A program made the translations under genes and the position numbers. From contig JAFRQP010000075.1 of NCBI GenBank assembly GCA_017428565.1, positions 1-36,378 on the forward strand: 36,378 nt of DNA. The letters are read 5' to 3'. Shown here one piece after another: positions 7,390 through 35,073 of the stretch (the stretch's first letter is position 1; each line of letters starts with the position of its first letter). The DNA is from Oscillospiraceae bacterium (GTDB lineage: Bacteria; Bacillota; Clostridia; Oscillospirales; Oscillospiraceae). The notes under the pieces were generated by a model, which was given only the letters and a program-made list of their open reading frames with translations, searched no databases and was not told where the DNA came from.

Positions 7390-9711
7390 ATGAAAATGAG
7401 CAACCTCAAGAAACTCATGGCTCTGCTGCTGGCCCTGGTCATGATCTTCGCGCTTGCCGCCTGCGGCGAGGCCAAGACCGAAGAGAAGACCGAGGAGCCC
7501 GTTGAGGAGCCCACCGAGCCCGTCGAGGAGCCCACCGACGTCGAAGAGCCCACCGACGCCGAGCCCGTCGAAGAGCCCGAGGAGGAGGAAGGCTATAAGC
7601 CCTCTTCCATCCAGCTGCTGAACGGCAAGGAGTACGGCGAAGATGCTGACTACATCTCCCTGTACGACAAGTTCGGCAAGGAAGCCTCCATCGCTGACGT
7701 GGAGGAAGATCCCGAGACCGGTCTCGCGTACTTCAACGCCCCCGACGGCAACAAGTACGAGCTGGGCCTGGACTTCCTGACCATGGCCATGGTGTACAAC
7801 ACCTCCACCGAAGGCACTGACTTCGCGACCGAGGATGAAGTGTACGCCGAGTGGTGGAAGTTCTACATCACCCGTTGGAACTACCTGCTGCCCGAGATCC
7901 CCCTGTACTCCAATGAGTACTACGATGTTTACAACGCCAAGATCATCGGTGTTGACGAGCATCCCACCAACCCCTTCTGGGGTCCCGCCCGTGCCCTGAT
8001 CGACTGGTCCTCCGAGAAGGATGACAACTCCTTCATCATGGGCAACTCCACCGACCTGTCCGGTAAGTTCCGTGTTTCCGACTTCGGTTCCTCCAGCCCC
8101 GGCGCTGCTGACAACGACGTTGCCGGCCTGGTCAACGGCCTCGACACCGTGGTCACCACCAAAGAGGGCGGCTATGTTGTGAACCCCACTGTCGTGAAGG
8201 ACTTCCAGCAGATCGAGAACGAGGACGGCACCTGCACCTACCAGATCACCATCTATGACGACCTGGTGTTCTCCGACGGCTCCCCCATCACCGCCAAGAA
8301 CTACCTGTACTACCCCATGGCCTTCTCCACTCCCGTTGCTGCTGAGGGCTCCGGCCGTGACGCTCGCTCCCTGCTGAGCTACGTCGGCTACGAAGAGTTC
8401 GCCGCGTTCGACGGTGAGAACGCCGAGGAAGAGGGCGTGAACCCTGTCATGGTCGGCCTGCGCCTGATCGACGACTACACCTTCTCCGCCACCGTTAAGT
8501 CCGACTACTATCCCTACTTCTACGCCATTGCTTACGCCCGCTTCAGCCCCACCTACAAGGACGTGTGGTTCGGCGCTGACGCTGACATCGCCGACGACGG
8601 CGAGGGCGTGTACATCACCGGCAACTTCTATGAGAAGAACGGCGACAGCTACGTTCTGGCTCAGCACATCAACGACTCCGGTATCGGCGACACCTACACC
8701 CTGTACCCCTGGTCCGGTCCTTACACCGTTGAGAACTACAACGCCTCCGAGAAGACCGCTACCCTGAAGCTGAACCCCAACTTCAAGGGCAACTACGAGG
8801 GCACCAAGCCCCAGATCGAGACTGTTATCTACAAGAAGATCATCTCCGAGACTCAGCTCGAGGACCTGAAGGCCGGCGGCGTTGACTGCCTGTCTGCCAT
8901 CACCGGCGGCGCTGCCACCGACGAAGCCATCGCCATGGCCGATGCTTCCGACGGCGCCTTCGTGTACACGCACTACTCTCGCGCCGGCTACGGCAAGCTG
9001 GGCTTCCGTGCCGACTACGGCCCCGTGCAGTTCCCCGAGGTCCGTCAGGCCATCGCCTTCTGCATGGACCGCGCCACCTTTGCTAAGGACTTCACCGGCG
9101 GCTACGGCGGTGTTGTCGACGGCCCCTACTACTCCGGTTCCTGGATGTACAAGGCTGCTACCGCTCAGGGCATGCTGCTGAACGCCTACGATACCTCCGT
9201 TGACACCGCCATCGCGGTCCTGGAGGAGGGCGGCTGGATCTACAACGCCGAGGGCGGCGAGTACACCGAGGGTGTCCGCTACAAGATGATCCCCGGCGAG
9301 TATGCCACCGAGTACGACAAGAACTACCAGTCCATCGACGGCGCTTACAAGACCGTTGAGATCGACGGCAACTACTACATGCCTCTGGCTCTGAACTGGT
9401 ACGGCACTGTCAACAACGAGTTCTCCGATCTGCTGGTCACCGGCTTTGAGCAGAACGACAACATCATCAATGCTGGCTTCACCGTCCAGAAGACCATCGG
9501 CGACTTCGCCCCGATGCTCGACGAGCTGTACCAGCAGCAGGTTTACGGCTACTACAGCGGCACTCCCATGTACACCTGCTTCAACTTCGCTACCGGCTTC
9601 AACAGCGCTGTGTACGACTACTCCTTCAACATGACCATCGATCCCTCCATGTACGATGACTACAGCGCCTACTACATCAAGGACGCTGCCGACATCTACT
9701 GGAACAACTGA
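7390..9711 (+). CDS. ABC transporter substrate-binding lipoprotein (SBP_bac_5), apparently circularly permuted
   Basis: A 773-residue extracellular lipoprotein that would capture substrate for the permease encoded downstream. The signal peptide ends at the lipobox LAAC with C25; an acidic Glu/Pro/Thr linker covers about 28-66. The family core begins near residue 214 (SFIMGNSTDLSGKF, then GAADNDVAGLVNGLDTV and the ITIYDDLVFSDGSPITAKNY strand-helix). Residues about 121-206 (FLTMAMVYNT, WNYLLPEIPLYSNEYYDVYN, NPFWGPARALIDW) resemble the part that normally lies at the C terminus of such proteins, and the C terminus stops after YYIKDAADIYWNN, where that part would be expected. Two ATGs (7390 and 7396) are possible; AGGAGG at 7380-7385 fits 7396 slightly better. 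Substrate is unknown; peptide or oligosaccharide are possible. Confidence 0.88.
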   Translation: MKMSNLKKLMALLLALVMIFALAACGEAKTEEKTEEPVEEPTEPVEEPTDVEEPTDAEPVEEPEEEEGYKPSSIQLLNGKEYGEDADYISLYDKFGKEASIADVEEDPETGLAYFNAPDGNKYELGLDFLTMAMVYNTSTEGTDFATEDEVYAEWWKFYITRWNYLLPEIPLYSNEYYDVYNAKIIGVDEHPTNPFWGPARALIDWSSEKDDNSFIMGNSTDLSGKFRVSDFGSSSPGAADNDVAGLVNGLDTVVTTKEGGYVVNPTVVKDFQQIENEDGTCTYQITIYDDLVFSDGSPITAKNYLYYPMAFSTPVAAEGSGRDARSLLSYVGYEEFAAFDGENAEEEGVNPVMVGLRLIDDYTFSATVKSDYYPYFYAIAYARFSPTYKDVWFGADADIADDGEGVYITGNFYEKNGDSYVLAQHINDSGIGDTYTLYPWSGPYTVENYNASEKTATLKLNPNFKGNYEGTKPQIETVIYKKIISETQLEDLKAGGVDCLSAITGGAATDEAIAMADASDGAFVYTHYSRAGYGKLGFRADYGPVQFPEVRQAIAFCMDRATFAKDFTGGYGGVVDGPYYSGSWMYKAATAQGMLLNAYDTSVDTAIAVLEEGGWIYNAEGGEYTEGVRYKMIPGEYATEYDKNYQSIDGAYKTVEIDGNYYMPLALNWYGTVNNEFSDLLVTGFEQNDNIINAGFTVQKTIGDFAPMLDELYQQQVYGYYSGTPMYTCFNFATGFNSAVYDYSFNMTIDPSMYDDYSAYYIKDAADIYWNN

Positions 9712-9991: not shown

Positions 9992-11044
9992 ATGGGAAAA
10001 TATGTTCTGAAGAGGATCGGATACATGGTCGTGGTTCTGATCATCCTGTCCGTCCTCATGTTCTTGATATACAATCTGGTTCCCAGCAACCGCGCCTATA
10101 CCGACGCCAAAGCTGACATGGTCAACATGAAGCAGCAGCTCCGCGGCAAGTCGGACGCTGAAAAGGAACAGGTGTTCCAGGAACGCTACCTGTACTATCA
10201 GCGGCTCTACGGCACCGATACCAAGAATCTGGCGGTCCGCTATCTGCGCTGGGTCGGCCTGTACCCCAACTACTTCGGCAAGTACAACGGCCTGCTGGAG
10301 GGCAACTTCGGCTACTCCTACGAGCTGAAGGACGACGTGGTGAACATCGTCGGCGAACCGATGAAGAATACCATCTTCATCAACATCTTCAACGTGATCC
10401 TGGCCCTGGGCATCACGATCCCCCTCGGCATTTTCTGCGCGGTCCGGAAGGGCAGCAAGTTTGACCAGGCGACCCAGGTCGTCACCATCATCGGCTACTC
10501 GCTGCCGACCTTCATCACCTGTATTCTGTTCATCTGGATCTTCTGCTCCCTGCTGCACTGGTTCCCGCCCAGCGGCATGGGCACGCCGGGCAACAACTTC
10601 ACCGGCTGGAAGTGGTTCTGGGACAGAATGTACTACATGTGCCTGCCGCTCATCACTATGACCTTCTGCTCCATGGGCGGCATGACCCGTTACGTCCGCG
10701 CCTCCATGATCGACGCGCTCTCCATGGACTGCATCCGCACCGCCCGCGCCAAGGGCGTCAAGGAGAAGACCGTTATCTACTCCCACGCCTGGCGCAACGC
10801 CCTGATCCCCATCGTGACTCTGGTCGTGGGCTGGTTCCTGGGCATCTTCGGCGGCTCCCTGATCTTTGAGAACATGTTCGGCATCAACGGCATGGGCAAG
10901 CTGATGATCCAGTCCCTGCGCACGGCGGATACGGACGTGATCATCCTGCTGCAGCTGTTCTACGTGGCCCTGTCCCTGTTGAGCAACCTCATCATCGACA
11001 TCGTGTACGGTCTTGTGGACCCGCGTGTCCGGGTCAACGCATAA
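9992..11044 (+). CDS. ABC transporter permease, DppB/OppB type
   Basis: A 350-residue membrane subunit of a peptide/nickel-family importer. TM1 (about residues 9-30: IGYMVVVLIILSVLMFLIYN) is followed by an external loop of about 90 residues, long but within the range of Firmicute OppB proteins, and then by the BPD_transp_1 core with five more helices (about 125-345). The cytoplasmic EAA loop that contacts the ATPases is visible as RYVRASMIDALSMDCIRTAR followed by AKGVKEKTVIYSHAWRNALIP. The ending LVDPRVRVNA is the family signature. ATG at 9992 follows TGGAG by 7 nt. The partner permease gene starts 12 nt downstream. Confidence 0.93.
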   Translation: MGKYVLKRIGYMVVVLIILSVLMFLIYNLVPSNRAYTDAKADMVNMKQQLRGKSDAEKEQVFQERYLYYQRLYGTDTKNLAVRYLRWVGLYPNYFGKYNGLLEGNFGYSYELKDDVVNIVGEPMKNTIFINIFNVILALGITIPLGIFCAVRKGSKFDQATQVVTIIGYSLPTFITCILFIWIFCSLLHWFPPSGMGTPGNNFTGWKWFWDRMYYMCLPLITMTFCSMGGMTRYVRASMIDALSMDCIRTARAKGVKEKTVIYSHAWRNALIPIVTLVVGWFLGIFGGSLIFENMFGINGMGKLMIQSLRTADTDVIILLQLFYVALSLLSNLIIDIVYGLVDPRVRVNA

Positions 11045-11056
11045 GGAGGTGCGAAG

Positions 11057-13006
11057 ATGAAAAAGAATAAAGGCTTCTTCGGCACCATCGGCGGCTGGTT
11101 CAAGCGCCTCTTCCACGGCGGCAGCAAGGTTTTGGCCGACGAAATGGAAGAAAACGCCAAGAACATGAAGGTGGAGGAGATCGTCAGCCCCTTCAAGCAG
11201 ATCGTTCGCGGCTTCTTCGAGCGGAGACTTGCGGTCATCGCCCTGTGCGTCGTGATCGCCATGTTCCTGCTGGTCTTCATCGGTCCCCTGTTCATGCCCA
11301 AGTACTACGACTCCTACACCGAGGTCACCCAGCAGAACGTCCACCCCACCATGAGCATGCTGTCCGTTCCCAGGGAGATGGAGAACGACGTCCGCATGAT
11401 CGACAGCTTCGGCAGCTTCACCGTCGGTGTGAACAACGAAGGCCAGGTCTTCATCTGGGGCGACTCCAAGATCAGCACCACCGGTCTGGATGTGCGCGAC
11501 ATCCCCGAGGAAGTGCTGAATGCCAAGATCATGTACGTTGCGGCCGGCATCGACCATGTTGTCGCCATCTCCGAGGAAGGCAAGGTCTACTGCTGGGGCT
11601 ACAACAAGCTGGGCCAGTTCGGCTACTTCGACCCCGAGAACAAGGACAACGCCAACATCCTGCCCGAGCCTGACATCCTGCTCAACGGCACCATCGACGT
11701 GGATCACGTCAAGAAGGTGACCTGCGGCTACCAGTGCAGCGCCATTCTGATGGATGACGGCACGCTCTACCTCTGGGGCAACAAGAACACCTATCAGAAC
11801 ATCGATCTGTTCGCCGGCAAGGACGATCTGATCGACATTGACTTCACCCTGAACTATGTGGTCGGCGTGACCGAGGCCGGCAACGGCGTCTACACCGGCA
11901 AGCGCGGCCTGTATGACCAGTTCCGCTCCAACCTGAACGTGAAGGCCGTTCCCGCCAGACAGTATCTGGACGGCCGCAAGATCGTTGCCATCAGCGCCAC
12001 CAGCAACACCGTCTGCGGCGAGCTGGACGACGGCTCCCTGTTCTTCACCGGCGACTTCGGCACCCGTGCCAAGCCCATGCCGGCGCTGAATGAGGGCGAG
12101 CGCGTGATCCAAATCGTCTCCGGCACCTACCACTACACCGCGCTGACCGACCAGGGGCGCGTGCTCTCCTGGGGCGGCGACACCCTGGACCAGACCCAGG
12201 TCCCCAAGGACATGACCGGCGTGACCCGGATCTACGGCGGCGCTTTCCAGAGCTATGCCGTGAACGACAACAACGAAGTGGTCGGCAAGTGGGGCCTGAA
12301 GGGCTACCTCTTCGGCACCGATAACCGCGGCGCCGACATCTTCCAGCGCATCATCCAGGGCGGCAAGATGACCATGACCATCGGCGCCATCGCCGTTATC
12401 ATCTCCACCATCATCGGCATCATCGTCGGCTGTATCTCCGGCTACTTCGGCGGCAAGGTCGACCTGATCCTGATGCGTGTGACCGAGATCTTCGCGGCCA
12501 TCCCCTTCCTGCCCTTCGCCTTGATCCTATCAGCCATCCTGGCGCAGTCCGACATCAGTGAGGATAACAAGATCTTTATCCTCATGGTGATCCTGGGCGT
12601 GCTGACCTGGACGGGCCTGGCCCGCATGGTCCGCGGCCAGGTGCTGCAGGCCCGCGAGAACGAATACGTCACCGCGGCCAAGGCCATGGGCGTGAAGGAG
12701 GGCGCCATCGCCTTCAAGCACATCCTGCCCAACATCGTCTCCATCATCTTCGTTACCCTGACCCTGGACTTCGCCACCTGTATGCTGACGGAATCCAGCC
12801 TGAGCTACCTGGGCTTCGGCGTCACTTACCCGCGGCCGACCTGGGGCAACATGCTCAACGGCGCCAACAACGCCACCATCATCACCAACTTCTGGTGGGA
12901 GTGGCTGTTCACGTCCCTGTTCCTTGCGATCACTTGTATCTGCATCAACATCGTTGGCGATACCCTGCGCGACGTTATGGACCCGAAGTCCGACCGCGAC
13001 AAGTAA
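11057..13006 (+). CDS. ABC transporter permease, DppC/OppC type, with RCC1-like propeller inserted
   Basis: A 649-residue second membrane subunit, about twice the usual length of roughly 300. The normal parts are an N-terminal cytoplasmic segment, TM1 (about 57-79), the conserved GTDNRGADIFQRIIQGGKMT (about 420-440), further helices, the EAA loop (YVTAAKAMGVKEGAIAFKHI, about 537-556) and the SSLSYLGFGVTYPRPTWGNML ending region. Between TM1 and the GTDNRG motif lie about 305 extra residues (108-412) with seven RCC1-type blade repeats such as VNNEGQVFIWGD, SEEGKVYCWGYNKLGQFG, MDDGTLYLWGN and TDQGRVLSWGG. By topology this loop is outside the cell. The frame is continuous, so it is a real domain insertion, not an assembly join. 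GGAGG at 11044-11048 serves the ATG. Confidence 0.92.
   Translation: MKKNKGFFGTIGGWFKRLFHGGSKVLADEMEENAKNMKVEEIVSPFKQIVRGFFERRLAVIALCVVIAMFLLVFIGPLFMPKYYDSYTEVTQQNVHPTMSMLSVPREMENDVRMIDSFGSFTVGVNNEGQVFIWGDSKISTTGLDVRDIPEEVLNAKIMYVAAGIDHVVAISEEGKVYCWGYNKLGQFGYFDPENKDNANILPEPDILLNGTIDVDHVKKVTCGYQCSAILMDDGTLYLWGNKNTYQNIDLFAGKDDLIDIDFTLNYVVGVTEAGNGVYTGKRGLYDQFRSNLNVKAVPARQYLDGRKIVAISATSNTVCGELDDGSLFFTGDFGTRAKPMPALNEGERVIQIVSGTYHYTALTDQGRVLSWGGDTLDQTQVPKDMTGVTRIYGGAFQSYAVNDNNEVVGKWGLKGYLFGTDNRGADIFQRIIQGGKMTMTIGAIAVIISTIIGIIVGCISGYFGGKVDLILMRVTEIFAAIPFLPFALILSAILAQSDISEDNKIFILMVILGVLTWTGLARMVRGQVLQARENEYVTAAKAMGVKEGAIAFKHILPNIVSIIFVTLTLDFATCMLTESSLSYLGFGVTYPRPTWGNMLNGANNATIITNFWWEWLFTSLFLAITCICINIVGDTLRDVMDPKSDRDK
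11378..12292 (+). other. RCC1-like beta-propeller insertion within the permease
   Basis: Residues about 108-412 of the permease. Blade motifs fall near residues 117-135, 163-190, 222-243, 262-283, 312-332, 354-373 and 393-413, with Trp or aromatic anchors at about 134, 180, 240, 279, 330, 372 and 412. Seven blades is the number in a closed RCC1 propeller. RCC1 propellers are known as protein- and lipid-binding platforms. Base composition matches the flanking gene, so there is no sign of recent transfer. Confidence 0.85.
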
Positions 13007-13019
13007 AGGAGGGAAAACG

Positions 13020-14012
13020 ATGGCATTACTTGAGATAAGAGATCTGCACACGTTCTTCCGCACCAAAAAGGGTATCGTGAAAGCAGTCAACGGCGTTTCC
13101 TATTCTGTGGAGCCCGGCCGCACCCTGGGCATCGTGGGCGAGTCCGGCTCCGGCAAGAGCGTCGCCGCCATGAGCATCCTGCAGCTGCTGGACGGCAACG
13201 GCTATATCGACAGCGGCGAGATTTTCTTTGACGGCCGGGATCTGACCAAGTGCACCAAGGAAGAGATGTACAAGGTCCGCGGCAACGACATCTCCGTCAT
13301 CTTCCAGGAGCCCATGACCTCCCTGAACCCGGTGTTCACCGTGGAGAAGCAGGTCTCCGAGCCCTTCATCATCCACCAGGGCATGAACAAGAAGGAGGCT
13401 GCCGAGAAGGTCATTGAGATGCTGGCAGACGTGAAGATCCCCAACCCCCAGATCGTCACCAAGCAGTATCCCCACCAGCTCTCCGGCGGTATGCGCCAGC
13501 GTGTCATGATCGCCATGGCCCTGGCCTGCAAGCCCAAGCTGCTGATCGCCGACGAGCCCACCACTGCTCTGGACGTGACCATCCAGGCCCAGATCCTGAA
13601 GCTCATCAACGAGCTGAAGGAGGAGCACGGCACCTCGGTCCTGTTCATCACCCACGACCTGGGCGTTATCCGCCAGATCGCGGACGACGTGGCCGTCATG
13701 TACTGCGGCCAGGTTGTGGAGAAGGCCCCCGCGGACACGATCTTCCGCCAGGGCGAGTTCTCCCACCCCTACACCGAAGGTCTGATGACCTCGATCCCCC
13801 GTCTGACCACCCCGGCCAACGAGAGACTGGACGCCATCCCCGGCGCCGTTCCTCACCCCCTGGCGCTGCCCAAGGGCTGCAAGTTCGCGCCCCGCTGCAA
13901 GTACGCCACCGAGCGCTGCCAGGAAGAGGAGCCGACCATGATCCACGTGTCCGAGACCCAGTCGATTCGCTGCTTCTACCCGAGAAAGGAGGATCGTCGC
14001 AATGCAAAATAA
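13020..14012 (+). CDS. ABC transporter ATP-binding protein, DppD/OppD type
   Basis: A 330-residue ATPase. Walker A GESGSGKS is at 40-47, Q-loop IFQEPMTSLNP about 94-104, signature LSGGMRQR 154-161, Walker B LLIADEPTTALD 174-185 and the H-loop HDLG at 212. The C-terminal oligopeptide-family extension has Cys at 287, 293, 300 and 318; some members of this family bind an iron-sulfur cluster there. The start is the ATG at 13020 after AGGAGGG (13007-13013), not the longer open frame reaching back to 12924. Its stop overlaps the next start by 11 nt, so the two ATPases are made together. Confidence 0.94.
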   Translation: MALLEIRDLHTFFRTKKGIVKAVNGVSYSVEPGRTLGIVGESGSGKSVAAMSILQLLDGNGYIDSGEIFFDGRDLTKCTKEEMYKVRGNDISVIFQEPMTSLNPVFTVEKQVSEPFIIHQGMNKKEAAEKVIEMLADVKIPNPQIVTKQYPHQLSGGMRQRVMIAMALACKPKLLIADEPTTALDVTIQAQILKLINELKEEHGTSVLFITHDLGVIRQIADDVAVMYCGQVVEKAPADTIFRQGEFSHPYTEGLMTSIPRLTTPANERLDAIPGAVPHPLALPKGCKFAPRCKYATERCQEEEPTMIHVSETQSIRCFYPRKEDRRNAK

Positions 14013-15573
14013 CGAGAACAAGAAAGTTTTGCTGAAGATCTCCAACCTGAAGCAGTATTTCCCCATCGGCAGACACGGCCTGTTCAACAAGGCCAACGAC
14101 GGTATCACCCTGGATATCTTCGAGGGCGAGACTCTGGGCCTGGTGGGCGAATCCGGCTGCGGCAAATCCACCTTCGGGCGCACGGTCCTGCAGCTTTACC
14201 GGCAGACCGACGGCCGCACCATGTACTACGGCGCGTCGCTGGACGAGCTGGCGCCCAAGTACGTGGCCAACACCATTGACCACCTGCACAAGCACATCAA
14301 AAAGATGCACGAGCTGCAGGCCAAGACCGACCATCTGCAGGCGGAGTACGACGCTGGGGACGAGAAGAAGCAGCTGGAGGTTGCAAACCATCTCCAGGCC
14401 GCCAAGAAGGCCTCCAACGACGCTTATCTGAACATCGTGAACCTGGTGGGCGGCTTCATCTGCGTGGAGGATCTGTCCGAGCCCATCAAGCTCTACAAGC
14501 AGCGCTACGCCCTCTGCGCCCGTCTCCACGATCACGTGGAGAAGCGGCGCCCCGTCAAGCTTGCCTTTGAGGAGAACGAGTTCATCGCCGGCAGCGAGGA
14601 GTATTCCGAGCGCCGCCGCGCCTCCGCCGGCAAGAAGATGGAGAAGAACAAGGAAAAGCTGGAAGCCTGGGACAAGGTCCTGGAGGAGGATCGCAAGGAG
14701 ATCGCCGCCATCGACCAGCAGCTGGATGCGCTGCGCGCCCAGCATGCCAACGATCCCGAGTTCCAGAAGCACGAGGCCTTCCGGGACGATGGCATCGACC
14801 TGGCGCGTCTGACCTACCCCGAGGTCCGTCTGCTCCGCTGCCAGATCCAGTACATCTTCCAGGATCCCTACTCCTCGCTGAACCCCCGTATGACGGTGGG
14901 CCAGATCATCAGCGAAGGTCTGGTGGCCCACAAGTTCTACAAGGCCGGCTCCGAGCGGATGCAGGCCGAGGTCATCCAGGTCATGAACAACTGCGGCCTG
15001 GCGGATTACTTTGTCCACCGCTTCCCGCACCAGTTCTCCGGCGGCCAGCGGCAGCGTATCTGCATCGCCAGAAGCCTTGCGGTGCGGCCCAAGTTCGTGG
15101 TCTGTGACGAGGCGGTCTCCGCGCTGGACGTGTCCATTCAGTCCCAGATCCTGAATCTGCTGCAGGATCTGAAGGAGCAGCAGCACCTGACCTACCTTTT
15201 CATCACCCACGACCTGTCCGTCGTGAAGTACATTTCCGACCGGATCGGCGTCATGTACCTGGGCAACCTGGTGGAGCTGTCTCCCTCGGAGGAGATCTTC
15301 AAGAAGCCCATCCACCCCTACACCCAGGCGCTGATCGCCGCCATCCCCACCACCGACCCGGACGACAGCAAGGAGCTGCAGATCCTGGAGGGCGATATCC
15401 CCAGCCCGGTGAACCCGCCCAAGGGCTGCAAGTTCCACACCCGCTGCCGTTACTGCACCGAGATCTGCAAGCAGGTCACGCCCGAGTGGCGCGAGATGGA
15501 GCCCAACCACTTCGTCGCCTGCCACCACCCGCTGATGAACGGCCTGGACATCGAGGCCAAGAAGCAGGACTGA
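14002..15573 (+). CDS. ABC transporter ATP-binding protein, DppF/OppF type, with helical insertion
   Basis: A 523-residue partner ATPase, about 190 residues longer than usual. Walker A GESGCGKST is at 49-57, Q-loop YIFQDPYSSLNPR at 284-296, signature FSGGQRQR 345-352, Walker B FVVCDEAVSALD 365-376 and H403. The C-terminal Cys motif (C476, C482, C485, C489, C507) is kept. Between Walker A and the Q-loop, residues about 86-272 are an added, charged, mostly helical segment with coiled-coil-like stretches such as KKMEKNKEKLEAWDKVLEED. The start ATG at 14002 lies within the end of the previous gene, with AAAGGAGG at 13985-13992. Confidence 0.93.
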   Translation: MQNNENKKVLLKISNLKQYFPIGRHGLFNKANDGITLDIFEGETLGLVGESGCGKSTFGRTVLQLYRQTDGRTMYYGASLDELAPKYVANTIDHLHKHIKKMHELQAKTDHLQAEYDAGDEKKQLEVANHLQAAKKASNDAYLNIVNLVGGFICVEDLSEPIKLYKQRYALCARLHDHVEKRRPVKLAFEENEFIAGSEEYSERRRASAGKKMEKNKEKLEAWDKVLEEDRKEIAAIDQQLDALRAQHANDPEFQKHEAFRDDGIDLARLTYPEVRLLRCQIQYIFQDPYSSLNPRMTVGQIISEGLVAHKFYKAGSERMQAEVIQVMNNCGLADYFVHRFPHQFSGGQRQRICIARSLAVRPKFVVCDEAVSALDVSIQSQILNLLQDLKEQQHLTYLFITHDLSVVKYISDRIGVMYLGNLVELSPSEEIFKKPIHPYTQALIAAIPTTDPDDSKELQILEGDIPSPVNPPKGCKFHTRCRYCTEICKQVTPEWREMEPNHFVACHHPLMNGLDIEAKKQD

Positions 15574-21770: not shown

Positions 21771-22634
21771 ATGGATGAGAATAAAAGAAGGCTGTATGTC
21801 GAGAAGAACGGCTTCTGGACGGAGGCGGCCATGCTGCTGATCGGCCTTGCCGTCGTGTTCCGCCTGATTGGCAGTGTCGGCCGCTGGGAGGACGCCCGCT
21901 ATCTCTTCACCCAGGTGGCGCTGCCGGCCTTCAGCGGGCTGCTGTTTCTGCTGTGCCTGCTGCTTCTGGGGAAAAGGGCCTTCTGGACCACGGTGATCCC
22001 GGTGGTGCTCGGCGTTGTGTTTTTCATCTTTCGCATCATGGGAGTGGAGAACGAGTGGCAGATCGTCGGCTGCATCGCGATGTATGTGGTGATTGCCGTG
22101 CTGTACGCCATGGCCTTCTCCGTTCCGAAGCTGAAGTGGGCGCTGGCGGCGATCTTGGCGCTGGCCTTCGTGGGCCACGTGATCCTGGACGTGCCGGAGC
22201 TGATGGATCTGGAGAATCCGCTCAGCTTTGTGGACGGGATGCAGGAGATGAGCGTGCTGGGCATCATCCTCTCGCTGCTGTGCACCAGCGTGGCGATGAA
22301 GTACCCGGCAGCTCCCGCCGCGCCGGCACCGGCCCAGCCTGCCGTTCCGGAGCAGCCGGCGGAGCCCGCCGCGCCGGAGGAAGAGACGGTGGACCCGCAG
22401 CAGCCTCTTGCCCCATGGGAGCCCTGGAGCCCGGAGCAGACGCCGCTGCAGGAGAGCGCGCCGGAGAGCATGGCGGAGAGCGCCACGGAGCCGGAGGAGA
22501 CGCTGCCTGCCCCGAGCCAGATCCCGGTGGAGGAGCTGGGCTTTGTGGCCGAGCCTGCGCCTGCCTTCCCGATAGACGAAGCCAACCAGGAAGAGATTGA
22601 GCCTGCGGCGGAGCGCAGCACGGAGAATGCATGA
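21771..22634 (+). CDS. Multi-pass membrane protein with Pro/Ala/Glu-rich tail, unknown
   Basis: A 287-residue protein without a family I can name. About five to six hydrophobic helices lie in residues 15-185 (AAMLLIGLAVVFRLIG, VALPAFSGLLFLLCLLLLG, WTTVIPVVLGVVFFIFRIMG, QIVGCIAMYVVIAVLYAMAF, LKWALAAILALAFVGHVIL, MSVLGIILSLLCTSVAM). The rest, about 190-287, is a low-complexity Pro/Ala/Glu tail. AGGAGGG precedes the ATG at 21771. Its stop overlaps the next start as ATGA, so it is coupled to the TPR-LRR gene. A role in the envelope is inferred only from neighbours. Confidence 0.8.
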   Translation: MDENKRRLYVEKNGFWTEAAMLLIGLAVVFRLIGSVGRWEDARYLFTQVALPAFSGLLFLLCLLLLGKRAFWTTVIPVVLGVVFFIFRIMGVENEWQIVGCIAMYVVIAVLYAMAFSVPKLKWALAAILALAFVGHVILDVPELMDLENPLSFVDGMQEMSVLGIILSLLCTSVAMKYPAAPAAPAPAQPAVPEQPAEPAAPEEETVDPQQPLAPWEPWSPEQTPLQESAPESMAESATEPEETLPAPSQIPVEELGFVAEPAPAFPIDEANQEEIEPAAERSTENA

Positions 22635-24403
22635 AAAACGCGGCGCAAAAAAAGAATAGCCGCAGTTCGGAAGCCCCCGATCGCATGAAGGGGCCGCGAA
22701 AGATCATCTTCGCCGCGGCCGCGGCGGCGCTGGTGCTGATCCTGGCGCTGCTGCTGCACGGCAACACGGAGACCAGCCGCTATAACCGCTATCGCAAGCA
22801 GGCGGCGGAGAGCTACCAGGCAGGGGACTACGACCAGGCGCTGAGCGACCTGCGCAGGGCGGAGGCCATTCGCTCCAGCGACGAGGTGCTCATGCTGATG
22901 GCCGACTGCTATGAGGCCCAGGGGAACCTGGATCTGGCCCTTTCGACCCTACGGCGCATGGATCGGAACGATCCGGCGGTGATGGAGCGCATCAATGCGC
23001 TGGAGCAGCGGCGGATGCAGCAGAGCGAGGAGGGGCGGATCGTCGTGGCCGGCGAGAGCTACGAGATCTCCGCCACGGAGCTGGATCTGGACGGACGGGG
23101 CCTGGGCAACGGGGTGCTGCAGGAGCTGCGGCAGCTCCACGCCCTCACGTCCCTGTCTCTGGCGGACAACGCCATTTCCGATCTGAGCGTGCTGGGCTCC
23201 CTGGGCGGCCTGAGGACCCTGAATCTCAGCGGCAACGCGGTCAGCGACCTGGGGCCCCTGGCCGGTCTGCACGATCTGCACAGCCTCTATCTGGACCGCA
23301 ATCCCCTGGGGGATCTGAGCCCGCTCTACGGCCTGGAGGAGCTGAGCCTGCTGAGCCTGCGGGGGGTGGAGCTGCAGAAGGGGGAGCTGGAGGCGCTGTC
23401 TGCCGCGCTGCCCCGCTGCGCCATTTTGACCGACGGCGACAAGGAGGGGGTTCTGAACATCCTCCTGGGCGGCATCGCCTTTGACACGGAGGTCACGAGC
23501 CTGAATCTCAGCGGCCTGGGCCTGCGGGAGGCGTCCTGCCTGAGTCTCTGCACCCGGCTGGTCTCTCTGGATCTCAGCGACAATGAGATCAGCGACCTGA
23601 GCCCGCTGATGAACCTGCAGCAGCTGGAAAAGCTGCGGATCTCCGGCAACCAGGTGACGGATCTGCGCCCCCTGATCGGCCTGAGCTCCCTGCGTCACCT
23701 GGAGGCGGCCCGCAACCAGGTGAGCGACGCAAGCGCCGTGGGCAGCATGCCCGGACTTCTCACGCTGGACCTGTCGGACAATCCCATGGGGGATTTTTCG
23801 GGGCTGAAAAAGCTGCCGAACCTGCAGACGCTCCGGCTGGAGAACACCGGCATCGGGGACGAGGACCTCCCCGCGCTCTATGAGATGAAGCGCTTGACCC
23901 GCCTGTATCTGGAGCGAAACGAGGGCATCACGGCGGAGGCCATGAGCGCCCTGGAAAACTGCCTGCCCAAGTGCGGCATCAGCTACGGGACCCTGGTGTA
24001 CACGGTGCAGCTGGGGGGAGAGGATTTCCGGACCGACGTGACCGAGATCTGCGTGGAGGGCACGGAGCTGTCCAGCCTCTACGGCTTTGAGAAGTTCGAC
24101 TGTCTGGAGACGGTGCGGCTGGGCCGGAACCGGATCCAGAGCGTGTCCGCCATGCAGAACGCCCACTGCCGGGAGCGGATCCGCTATCTGGATCTGAGCT
24201 TCAATCTGATCGAGGACATTTCGCCCCTGGGGACCCTGAGCAATCTGGAGACCCTGGATCTGCGGAACAATCAGATCAGCTCCCTGGTCCCGCTGCGGCG
24301 GCTGACCAATCTGAAAAAGCTGTACATCAGCGGCAATCCCTTGACGGACGAGCAGGTGGAGGAGCTCCGCCGCGCTTTGCCGGACTGCGATATCGTGTGG
24401 TGA
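22631..24403 (+). CDS. Membrane-anchored TPR and leucine-rich repeat protein
   Basis: A 590-residue protein. A basic N-terminal tail and one membrane helix (about 24-43) are followed by TPR-like helices (about 51-118: YRKQAAESYQAGDYDQALSD, ADCYEAQGNLDLALSTLR) and at least a dozen leucine-rich repeats of 21-23 residues (about 145-590), such as LVSLDLSDNEISDLSPL and LETLDLRNNQISSLVPL. The repeats are of the internalin/SDS22 type. The arrangement suggests an outward-facing protein-binding surface. There is no sortase motif. The start overlaps the previous stop by 4 nt. Function is unknown; partner binding is the reasonable guess. Confidence 0.85.
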   Translation: MKNAAQKKNSRSSEAPDRMKGPRKIIFAAAAAALVLILALLLHGNTETSRYNRYRKQAAESYQAGDYDQALSDLRRAEAIRSSDEVLMLMADCYEAQGNLDLALSTLRRMDRNDPAVMERINALEQRRMQQSEEGRIVVAGESYEISATELDLDGRGLGNGVLQELRQLHALTSLSLADNAISDLSVLGSLGGLRTLNLSGNAVSDLGPLAGLHDLHSLYLDRNPLGDLSPLYGLEELSLLSLRGVELQKGELEALSAALPRCAILTDGDKEGVLNILLGGIAFDTEVTSLNLSGLGLREASCLSLCTRLVSLDLSDNEISDLSPLMNLQQLEKLRISGNQVTDLRPLIGLSSLRHLEAARNQVSDASAVGSMPGLLTLDLSDNPMGDFSGLKKLPNLQTLRLENTGIGDEDLPALYEMKRLTRLYLERNEGITAEAMSALENCLPKCGISYGTLVYTVQLGGEDFRTDVTEICVEGTELSSLYGFEKFDCLETVRLGRNRIQSVSAMQNAHCRERIRYLDLSFNLIEDISPLGTLSNLETLDLRNNQISSLVPLRRLTNLKKLYISGNPLTDEQVEELRRALPDCDIVW

Positions 24404-27702: not shown

Positions 27703-28836
27703 TCAGTCCAGCTTGACGATGTTGCTGTCTGTCATGAAATTGCCCACGCTGTAGAGGATAAGCACCCGGTCGAAGTCCTCCGCCGCCAGCAGCTCGGACA
27801 CCGGCTCCCGGTAGTAGCGCAGGTCCACCAGCACCAGCTCCTCAAAATCCTCCGCCAGAAAGCAGGCGAAGGAGCTGCCGAAGCTGTCCCGGATCAGCAG
27901 GAGCTTTCCCTTTCCCGCGCCGTCCAGGTTCCGCACCCGCACCAGGGAGTGGTTTCCGTCCAGAAACACGGGGTACTTGTCGTTTTCCGCCAGCCGCAGC
28001 TCATAAAATAGCCCCTCGTGGACGCCCGGCGTCTCGGCATTTTCCACTTGGAAGCGACCGCCGCAGTCCCAGAGCTCCAGCTCCTCCGCCGGCAGGCTCC
28101 ACAGCGCGGCCCGGGCGTAGGTGCTGCCGCGAAAATCCGGCTCCCGGCGCACCGCGTAGTCCTCCGGGGCCCGGCTCTCCCGGCCGATGGACGCCAGATA
28201 GGCGGCGGCTGCCAGCTGCGCGCCGCGGCTCGTCCAGTGGTGGTCCGTCCGGTAGTAGAGGCCGGCGGGGTCCTCCGCCGCCTGAAACAGCGGCAGCAGC
28301 TCCAGGGTCTGGAGCCGGCCCTCCGCCATACCGTAGGCCGCGGCGATGATCTCCCCGTCCCGGTAGGGGTCGGCCAGGGCGGGCAGCCCTTCCTCCGCCA
28401 CGGCGCCCGCCGAGGGCACCAGCAGCAGATCCACGGGGCAGGGGGCCTGCTCGGCAAAGTCCAGGAGCGCTGCCACGTTGCGGCGGATCGTCTCCTCGTC
28501 ATAGGGGGCGGGGGCCTCCACCAGACGGCCGTCCCGGCAGAGATAGACCTCTCCCGCGGTCTGCCGGCCCAGCAGCTGGGCGGCCCGCGCGTCCAGCCCC
28601 ACCAGAAAGTCCCGGCCGGGCAGGTGGTCCGCCGCGTAGCGCTCCGCGTCCTCCGCAAAGCGGCCGGAGAGCAGCTCCGTCCCGGTGAGACGGGGCGGCG
28701 CGGCCAGCACCCGCTTCTCCTTCAGGGAGAGCTCCTCTTTCGGCAGCAGCAGGAAGAGGGCCAGCATCCCGCCCAGAGCCAGGCAGAAGAGCAGCACCAG
28801 CAGCGCGTCGGATTTTTTGACAGTCGTAGTTTTCAT
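27703..28836 (-). CDS. DHHW family protein (AlgJ/AlgX-like, SGNH fold)
   Basis: A 377-residue membrane-anchored extracellular protein. One N-terminal helix (about 10-32) leads to an SGNH-like domain with the family motif TDHHW (D198-H199-H200-W201) and the Ser motif RDSFGSSF (D317, S318), together giving a Ser-His-Asp site. Relatives such as AlgJ and AlgX take acetyl groups from an MBOAT partner and place them on polysaccharide. Its gene starts 3 nt after the MBOAT gene stop, which supports the pairing. The target polymer is unknown. Confidence 0.87.
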   Translation of the reverse strand: MKTTTVKKSDALLVLLFCLALGGMLALFLLLPKEELSLKEKRVLAAPPRLTGTELLSGRFAEDAERYAADHLPGRDFLVGLDARAAQLLGRQTAGEVYLCRDGRLVEAPAPYDEETIRRNVAALLDFAEQAPCPVDLLLVPSAGAVAEEGLPALADPYRDGEIIAAAYGMAEGRLQTLELLPLFQAAEDPAGLYYRTDHHWTSRGAQLAAAAYLASIGRESRAPEDYAVRREPDFRGSTYARAALWSLPAEELELWDCGGRFQVENAETPGVHEGLFYELRLAENDKYPVFLDGNHSLVRVRNLDGAGKGKLLLIRDSFGSSFACFLAEDFEELVLVDLRYYREPVSELLAAEDFDRVLILYSVGNFMTDSNIVKLD

Positions 28837-28839
28837 CGT

Positions 28840-30222
28840 TCAGAACCGGAAGTAGATAAAGGGGTTGTAGCTCTGGCTGGCCAGAGCGGCGATACAGAGC
28901 AGCAGCAGGGCGCCCAGGGCGGGGATCCGGCCCCAGTCGGCCCAGGGGCGCTGCCGCAGCCGGGCCCAGAGACGCTCAGGCAGGGGCGTGGCGCAGAGGG
29001 CGGCAATCAGGGCGGTGGGCAGATAGGCCAGGATCCGGTGCAGGGCGGGCAGGCCGCTTGCCTCCGGGCGGAAGAGCCGCCCCAGGAAGGCGAAGAGGGC
29101 GGCGCTGTCCTCAAAATAGAAGAGCATCCAGCCCAGGGCCACCGCCAACAGCACAAGCAGCGTCCGCAGCAGCCCCGGCAGCTTTTCCAGCAGCCTGCCA
29201 AGGAAGAGCTTCTCCGCGATCAGCAGCACGGCGTAGTACAGGCCCCAGAGCAGGAAGTTCCAGCTGGCCCCGTGCCAGAGCCCCGTCAGTGCCCAGACGA
29301 TCAGCAGGTTCAGCAGCTGCCGCCGCAGCCCCCGGCGGTTGCCCCCCAGGGGGATATACACATATTCCCGGAACCAGGTGGACAGGGAGATGTGCCAGCG
29401 GCGCCAGAACTCGGTGACGCTGCGGGAGATATAGGGGTAGTCGAAGTTCTTGAGAAATTCGAAGCCCAGCATCCGGCCCAGGCCGATGGCCATGTCCGAA
29501 TAGCCGGAGAAGTCAAAGTAGATCTGCAGGGTGTAGGCGAACATGCCGCACCAGGCGGAGAGGCAGCCCGGCTGGGCCTGCAGATTCTCCCACAGGGCGC
29601 CCATGGGGTTTGCCAGCAGCAGCTTTTTGCTGAGGCCCAGGATGAAAAGGCTCACCCCGGAGGCAAACTGGGGCAGATTCTCCCGCCGGCTCTCCAGCTG
29701 CTCCGCCACGTCCCGATACCGGACGATGGGGCCGGCGATGAGCTGGGGGAACATGGCCACATAGGCGCCGAAGCGCAGGGGACTGCGCTGCAGGGAGGCC
29801 TTTCCCCGGTAGAGGTCGATGACGTAGCTCATGGACTGGAAGATGTAGAAGGAGATGCCGATGGGCAGCACCAGCTCGGGCACGGGCAGGCCGCCCAGAC
29901 CCGGCAGCAGGCGCAGGCTGCGGGCGAAAAGGCCGGCGTACTTGAAGGTGCCCAGCAGCGCCAGGTTCAAGACCACGGAAACGGTCAAAGCGGCCTTTGC
30001 CGAGCGCCCCCGGGCCTGCCGGGCGGCGATCCAAAGGCCGCAGAAATAGTTGAGCAGGATGGTAAAGACCATCAGCAGCAGATACACCGGCTCGCCCCAG
30101 CCGTAGAATACCAGACTTGTCAGCAGCAGGGTCAGATTGCGGCCCCGCCGGGGCGTCAGATAGTAAAGGGCAAGGGTGATCGGCAGGAAGAAAAAGAGAA
30201 AGATGTTGCTGGAAAAGACCAA
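28840..30222 (-). CDS. MBOAT O-acyltransferase, AlgI/DltB-like
   Basis: A 460-residue multi-pass membrane protein that moves an acyl, usually acetyl, group across the membrane. Family features are MVFSSNIFLFFFLP, FKYAGLFARSL, the PIGISFYIFQSMSYVIDLYRG helix, YFDFSGYSDMAIGLGRMLGF, FWRRWHISLSTWFREYVYIP (H277) and the catalytic-His motif LTGLWHGASWNF (H317). The start is TTG at 30222, with AAGGAG eight bases upstream; no ATG gives the full N terminus. It is followed 3 nt later by the DHHW gene. The upstream DUF4358 gene lies 53 nt away. Confidence 0.93.
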   Translation of the reverse strand: MVFSSNIFLFFFLPITLALYYLTPRRGRNLTLLLTSLVFYGWGEPVYLLLMVFTILLNYFCGLWIAARQARGRSAKAALTVSVVLNLALLGTFKYAGLFARSLRLLPGLGGLPVPELVLPIGISFYIFQSMSYVIDLYRGKASLQRSPLRFGAYVAMFPQLIAGPIVRYRDVAEQLESRRENLPQFASGVSLFILGLSKKLLLANPMGALWENLQAQPGCLSAWCGMFAYTLQIYFDFSGYSDMAIGLGRMLGFEFLKNFDYPYISRSVTEFWRRWHISLSTWFREYVYIPLGGNRRGLRRQLLNLLIVWALTGLWHGASWNFLLWGLYYAVLLIAEKLFLGRLLEKLPGLLRTLLVLLAVALGWMLFYFEDSAALFAFLGRLFRPEASGLPALHRILAYLPTALIAALCATPLPERLWARLRQRPWADWGRIPALGALLLLCIAALASQSYNPFIYFRF

Positions 30223-34158: not shown

Positions 34159-35073
34159 ATGAAAATCACCGGGAAACACCTGCTTCTCACGGCGCTGGCC
34201 GGGGTGCTGCTGGGCGTGCTGGGGGTGCTGCTGCTGCGCAGCGGCCCGGCGTCTGAGACGCCGCCCACCGTCCTGAGCGTGCCCGCCCCCACGGGGGAGC
34301 CGAGCCCCGCCCCCGCCGCGGCGCCGCCCGAGACGCCGGCTCCCGCTCCGAGTCCCGCGCCCCCCGTGGAGGAGGCCCTGCGGGCCTTCCTGGGGGAGGA
34401 GCAGGGCCGCTGGAGCCTGGCCTATCTGCCCCTGCCGGAGGGGGAGCTGGTCTGGCTGGCCACCGACCGGGAGCCCATGGTCTCCGCCAGCCTCATCAAG
34501 CTCTTCATCATGGGCGCGGTCTATGAGCGGCTGGAGAGCGGGGAACTGGAGCGCGACGCGGTCTGGCCGCTGCTCTCCGCCATGATCACCTACAGCGACA
34601 ACGCCTCCGCCAACACGCTGACGCGGATGCTGGGCGGCGGCGACGAGGCGGCCGGCATGGCCGCGGTGAACGACTGGTGCGCCCGCCAGGGCTATGCCCA
34701 GACCCGGATGAACCGGCTGATGCTGGCGGACAACGGCCTGCAGAACTACACCGGCGCGGAGGACTGTGCCCGCTTCCTGGCGGCGGTCTACCGGGGGGAC
34801 TGCGTTTCTCCCGAAGCCTCCCGGGAGATGCTGGAGCTGCTGCTGGCCCAGACGGTGAACGACCGGCTGCCCGCCCGCCTGCCGGAGGGGACGCCCGTCG
34901 CCCACAAGACCGGGGATCTGTCCGGCCTCTGCTGCGCCGACGTGGGCATCGTCTTCAGTCCCGGCGGGGACTACATCCTCTGCCTCATCTGCAACGACCA
35001 GGATTATGATCTGGACGCCAGGGACGCCGAGGCAGAGCTCTCGGCAAAGATCTACGGGCTGGCGAACCCCTGA
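34159..35073 (+). CDS. Class A beta-lactamase-fold serine hydrolase
   Basis: A 304-residue protein with an N-terminal membrane helix (about 7-27) and a Pro/Ala linker (about 30-70), so the domain is outside the cell. The serine-site motifs are SLIK (S111, K114), SDN (146-148) and KTG (250-252). The Glu-xx-Leu-Asn motif that class A beta-lactamases use for deacylation is not seen; the matching stretch reads MNRLMLADNGLQNYTGAED. It is therefore more likely a housekeeping penicillin-recognising protein of the beta-lactamase2 group than a resistance enzyme. It starts 3 nt after the YARHG gene with no clear ribosome site, so it relies on coupling. Confidence 0.85.
   Translation: MKITGKHLLLTALAGVLLGVLGVLLLRSGPASETPPTVLSVPAPTGEPSPAPAAAPPETPAPAPSPAPPVEEALRAFLGEEQGRWSLAYLPLPEGELVWLATDREPMVSASLIKLFIMGAVYERLESGELERDAVWPLLSAMITYSDNASANTLTRMLGGGDEAAGMAAVNDWCARQGYAQTRMNRLMLADNGLQNYTGAEDCARFLAAVYRGDCVSPEASREMLELLLAQTVNDRLPARLPEGTPVAHKTGDLSGLCCADVGIVFSPGGDYILCLICNDQDYDLDARDAEAELSAKIYGLANP

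Follow-up and report, generated by a model that had tools for sequence, protein, structure and literature searches.

The C-subunit chains solved for DppABCDF and OppABCDF of E. coli and for OppABCD and DppABCD of M. tuberculosis count 287-302 residues, which is too short to hold a propeller. To our knowledge, few importer permeases have folded extracellular domains. The MalF-P2 loop of the maltose importer is, like the domain described here, a folded extracytoplasmic part of a permease, and it is reported to interact with its binding protein. The two differ in fold, in the loop that carries them and in permease family. In E. coli DppABCDF, according to the accessible part of PMC12136057, it is a scoop motif of DppB that touches the binding protein and closes off the cavity.

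We analysed a stretch of 36,378 nucleotides from an Oscillospiraceae bacterium (hereafter the window), which carries on its forward strand an operon with the gene order binding protein, B, C, D, F. A family 5 binding protein, a B permease and two oligo_HPY ATPases identify the operon as Opp/Dpp-type. The DppB/OppB-type permease (9992..11044) precedes the C-subunit, which is followed by a DppD/OppD ATPase with an oligo_HPY region (13020..14012, the ATG at 13020 being its likely start as read from the sequence) and by a DppF/OppF ATPase of 523 residues (14002..15573), in which a large insert (about residues 80-262) separates the Walker A motif from the Q-loop.

A predicted seven-bladed propeller in the C-subunit

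The C-subunit is an OppC/DppC-type permease of 649 residues (11057..13006, forward strand) that matches OppC_N with 38.8 bits (cut-off 23.9) and BPD_transp_1 with 112.7 bits (cut-off 26.4). Its first transmembrane segment, TM1, placed by hydropathy and by the OppC_N match, covers residues 60-78 (11234..11290). A linker with the consensus TQxNVxPG (residues 81-105, 11297..11371) leads from TM1 to an insert of the RCC1/BLIP-II type (residues 106-412, 11372..12292). The chain then passes through the propeller exit and the GTD loop (residues 413-436, 12293..12364) into the permease core, TM2-TM6 with the EAA loop (residues 437-649, 12365..13003). The insert matches RCC1_2 with 91.7 bits and RCC1 with 46.2 bits (Pfam cut-offs 22 and 21.7), at E-values of 2e-26 to 4e-35 that rule out chance repeats. 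With the whole-domain model PF25390 it scores 122.1, under the cut-off of 150, and a relative (L172) reaches 159.6. In the predicted structure of the window permease the insert forms a closed seven-bladed propeller, whose closest fold is BLIP-II. The sequence-only reading had proposed seven RCC1-type blades at about residues 108-412 of this gene and made their closure a point to check; the Pfam matches and the model bear out the coordinates, the boundaries and the type, and the modelled propeller is closed. Its extracellular placement also holds, as hydropathy and the logic of the family put the propeller in the extracytoplasmic loop that leads from TM1 to the GTD motif. A cytoplasmic insert is ruled out by the number of transmembrane segments and the position of the EAA loop.

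The last strand of the propeller stops at W412, and only seven residues separate it from G420 of the GTD loop, so that the propeller should move with the membrane core. G413, G416, G420 and D422 are invariant among 25 sequences. Conservation amounts to 0.74 in the exit linker, 0.73 in the TMD and 0.52 in the propeller, most of whose conserved residues resemble the generic RCC1 consensus. In five Butyrivibrio propellers (L037, L039, L042, L043 and L044), blades 2 and 3 are separated by an acidic loop rich in Glu, very roughly 50-80 residues long. Genome G000 encodes, at a contig start, a second RCC1-repeat ORF (G000:C35:5-544, L183).

Conservation of the fusion and of the operon

A scan of one genome per species returned 17 loci, of which 15 encode the whole fusion and two match its propeller side only. 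The record titles of the fusion-bearing contigs include Butyrivibrio and Oscillospiraceae, and two of the 15, Butyrivibrio sp. AE3009 and MC2021, are titled as strains and not as MAGs. Counting the window's own genome each time, the fusion was found in at least 9 of 150 genomes of the family sample, in 17 of 391 of the class sample and in 14 of 398 of the phylum sample, one genome (G212) being counted in two of the samples. The 14 phylum genomes comprise 11 newly scanned ones with a whole gene, the window's own and G212, both scanned earlier, and G834, left out because its gene starts at a contig end. All scanned permeases combine the RCC1-like region with BPD_transp_1 (16/16, 25/25 and 11/11, with the window in the first two sets). 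Beyond the window, the same fusion thus occurs in 15 contigs of the species scan and 35 scanned sample genomes, with at least one shared between them (G060 is L034). This recurrence rules out an assembly artefact at the join, a doubt raised when the sequence was first read. In a tree of the permease core from the GTD motif on, with the insert left out, one branch with support 99 has all propeller permeases on the same side, both in a first set of 39 and in a later one of 50, which fits a single acquisition of the propeller.

The loop between TM1 and the GTD motif is also occupied in sister permeases. DppC permeases of the sets A3 and A6 (L010-L024, L026-L030, L064, L065 and L067-L076) carry another insert there, made of a repeated unit and up to about 390 residues long. 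Of the 34 A3 members, 32 have a large domain at this site, and none has RCC1. The sister insert gave only weak matches in Pfam (best E 0.003) and none below E 0.08 in the PDB. As an unrelated repeat domain takes up this loop in the sister permeases, the site seems to serve generally for extracellular add-ons to peptide importers in the Bacillota phylum.

The gene order of the window is shared by all 15 loci of the species scan, one contig (L041) cutting off both ends of the operon. In 21 of 23 further propeller loci the binding-protein ORF adjoins B (that of L094 being in pieces); in the remaining two the contig stops at this point. L077, which is among the 23, appears to be the same gene as L034. 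The binding protein is likewise adjacent in all 11 operons fetched from the phylum search. The DppF insert was recognised in 35 of 44 propeller operons and is absent in L082 and L083, the remaining seven not being counted either way; where the permease has the other insert (16 operons), DppF counts only 321-394 residues. Two genes appear split into two pieces, the binding protein of L094 (3072-5359) and DppF of L173 (9228-10785), perhaps through sequencing error or decay.

Genes downstream of the window operon had no match at E 1e-10 in the 15 species-scan loci, several of which end soon after the operon. Elsewhere in the window we noted a 590-residue protein (22631-24403) whose N-terminal part is TPR-like and which has many leucine-rich repeats, and an MBOAT acyltransferase adjoining a DHHW/AlgX-like protein (27703-30222, reverse strand), a pair associated with the acylation of extracellular polymers. 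A protein of the Beta-lactamase2 Pfam family is encoded at 34159-35073; a tie to the BLIP-II-like propeller is most likely coincidence.

The operon type, together with M3 oligoendopeptidase homologues beside the binding-protein gene, suggests that the importer probably carries oligopeptides. Such homologues adjoin this gene in 7 of 37 loci. When flanking ORFs were clustered, M3-type peptidases alone recurred in more than three loci: they are present in nine, seven with strong M3 homologues and two (L082 and L083) with a different HEMGH metallopeptidase in their place. The one homologue scored, that of L097, reaches 558 bits with TIGR02289. The gene lies on the other strand in L095 and L097, and it is partial, at a contig start, in L035. 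A weak M3 match was found in one of the 11 phylum loci. The 20 scanned flanking ORFs of the window include no M3 peptidase; their sole peptidase is a methionine-aminopeptidase-like M24 protein in a ribosomal cluster.

A circularly permuted binding protein

The binding lipoprotein of the window (773 residues, 7390..9711, forward strand) matches SBP_bac_5 (PF00496) with 96.6 bits (cut-off 32.4), and sequence comparison shows that it departs from the canonical N-to-C order of this fold. After the lipobox cysteine (residue 25) and a Glu/Thr/Pro-rich linker comes a stretch (residues 85-205, 7642..8004) whose homologue in canonical binding proteins is the C-terminal end, followed by one homologous to their N-terminal and middle part (residues 213-773, 8026..9708). 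Against the peptide-binding OppA 9p48, residues 150-205 correspond to the C-terminal positions 505-557, and residues 443-587 to the middle positions 177-311. A sister protein of canonical order (L079) gives the same picture: window residues 91-204 align with its residues 637-738 (46% identity) and window residues 216-758 with its residues 85-641. These alignments indicate a circular permutation of the window binding protein; other propeller permeases are served by relatives in canonical order. The predicted structure of the permuted protein is poor (pLDDT 54, pTM 0.44). Both this permutation and the unrelated insert of the sister permeases had escaped the sequence-only reading. None of the open-licence papers listed in our searches, PMC9218822, PMC10928387 and PMC4449606 among them, describes a naturally permuted ABC binding protein.

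Classified with two profiles built from the permuted set, the 36 binding-protein ORFs of propeller loci comprise 17 permuted, 18 canonical and one in neither class, L034 and L077 looking like one gene. All 11 ORFs from the phylum search are canonical. A branch with support 86 in the binding-protein tree has all 17 permuted rows on one side, and L079 is their neighbour. The permease tree, unlike the binding-protein tree, would need two changes for the permutation, since it pairs the canonical L004 with the permuted L049 (96/77). The deeper propeller branches have canonical binding proteins, which suggests that the propeller was acquired before the permutation arose.

The propeller permease and one subfamily of binding proteins co-occur almost exclusively in the class sample. 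At E<=1e-30 the binding-protein profile matched 16 of 391 class genomes, and 15 of these are among the 17 with a propeller permease, the match of one (G498) lying on another contig than its operon. The sixteenth, in a genome outside the propeller set (G250), ends 22 bases before a contig end. The two propeller genomes that gave no match have contigs of 6-7 kb.

Co-variation of the propeller with the binding protein

Over 43 operons (42 of 43 loci and the window), the distances between propellers correlate with those between binding proteins with a partial r of 0.60, given DppD, the TMD core and DppB (Mantel 0.001); distances within one operon, having a common history, are not independent, and Mantel values err on the liberal side. 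With quadratic controls the correlation is 0.55 on raw values and 0.38 on ranks, in 35 of 44 operons, nine being skipped for missing genes or for a DppF insert that was unrecognised or absent. The fast-evolving cytoplasmic insert of DppF, used as a control, gave 0.23 raw and 0.20 on ranks with the same quadratic controls, the TMD core 0.30 and 0.18, and DppB 0.22 and 0.32, the last value being near that of the propeller on ranks. With fewer controls (DppD and the propeller), the TMD core reaches 0.46. Mean distances are 1.34 for the propeller, 1.10 for the binding protein, 0.80 for DppB and 0.58 for the TMD core, which makes the propeller the fastest-evolving of the operon parts compared. A co-variation of propeller and binding protein beyond that of the rest of the operon is suggestive only.

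Possible roles of the propeller

We favour, at a probability of roughly one half, the reading that the system is a type I ABC importer of the Opp/Dpp kind whose C-subunit bears an extracytoplasmic propeller that docks or gates its binding protein. The propeller would touch the binding protein and help to dock, orient or gate it over the pore, as MalF-P2 reportedly does, and the C-subunit would offer it a second surface beside the DppB scoop motif. Moving with the membrane core, the propeller could couple the transport cycle to an arriving binding protein. On this reading, too, the permutation in the window's lineage would have shifted the lipid anchor to another site on its binding protein. 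The co-occurrence, the adjacency of the genes in the operon, the co-variation and an exit linker as conserved as the TMD point to such a role. We count against it that correlation with the binding protein extends to the TMD core and that the conserved propeller residues are mostly generic for RCC1; the co-occurrence may moreover reflect only vertical inheritance of the operon. Of the functions considered when the sequence was first read, docking of the binding protein alone has gained indirect support, from the co-occurrence, the binding-protein tree and the co-variation, while contact between the two proteins is what we infer.

A stronger form of the docking reading, which we offer tentatively and hold to be possible without expecting it, makes the propeller a permanent receptor for its own binding protein, with a new docking geometry that co-evolved. 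Once held in this way, the chain would have been free to permute, so that its lipid anchor emerges elsewhere on the protein.

Next in our ranking, and on balance unlikely, the propeller may capture another ligand, such as a cell-wall polymer, a secreted peptidase or some other protein, and so place the importer beside the source of its substrate. Its fast evolution is what a ligand-facing surface might show, its closest fold, BLIP-II, is a secreted binder of another protein in the accessible text of PMC9218822, and wall-anchored RCC1 proteins of bee-gut bifidobacteria are described in that of PMC4449606. However, the only proteins recurring beside the operon in more than three loci are the M3-type peptidases, in a minority of loci, and the residual co-variation is with the binding protein. 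Less probable again, the propeller may cover the pore as a shield, funnel or spacer and need no specific partner, a purpose that the unrelated insert of the sister permeases would share. Another large insert at the same site is present in 30 of the 51 non-propeller permeases of the tree (nearest matches plus hand-picked short-loop ones), so that the site tolerates bulky domains, and the conservation of the propeller is moderate; the strongly conserved exit linker and the one fold kept across the class and phylum samples nevertheless argue for a specific role. A neutral insertion that chance has preserved is highly improbable, as is an artefact of assembly or annotation, given the same fusion in 15 species-scan contigs (two Butyrivibrio strains among them) and 35 sample genomes and the position of all propeller permeases on one side of a branch of the core tree.

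Comparison with known systems

Opp4C (NF045476) is the best NCBIfam match to the window permease core; the score of 291.8 bits lies below the equivalog cut-off of 350, and the model, with 278 positions, is too short for a propeller. The DppC permeases of the Bacillota sets A3 and A6 resemble that of the window in having a large domain at the same site and differ from it in the kind of domain, RCC1 being absent from all 34 A3 members. BLIP-II is a free secreted inhibitor outside any transporter, whereas the window propeller is built into a permease. The sequence-only reading knew of no importer permease with such a domain, in agreement with the open-licence papers listed in our searches, none of which describes an RCC1 domain in an importer permease (PMC9218822, PMC10928387 and PMC4449606 included). 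The parts are known individually, and their combination did not turn up in these papers.

The arrangement suggests an undescribed way to hand peptides to the pore, and it bears on how binding proteins are selected and held there in Gram-positive cells. A conserved gut and rumen peptide importer that has a propeller, and a permuted binding protein with unpermuted sisters, makes docking directly testable. If the propeller is indeed a permanent receptor, the task of MalF-P2 would have been solved a second time and independently, here with a naturally permuted binding protein.
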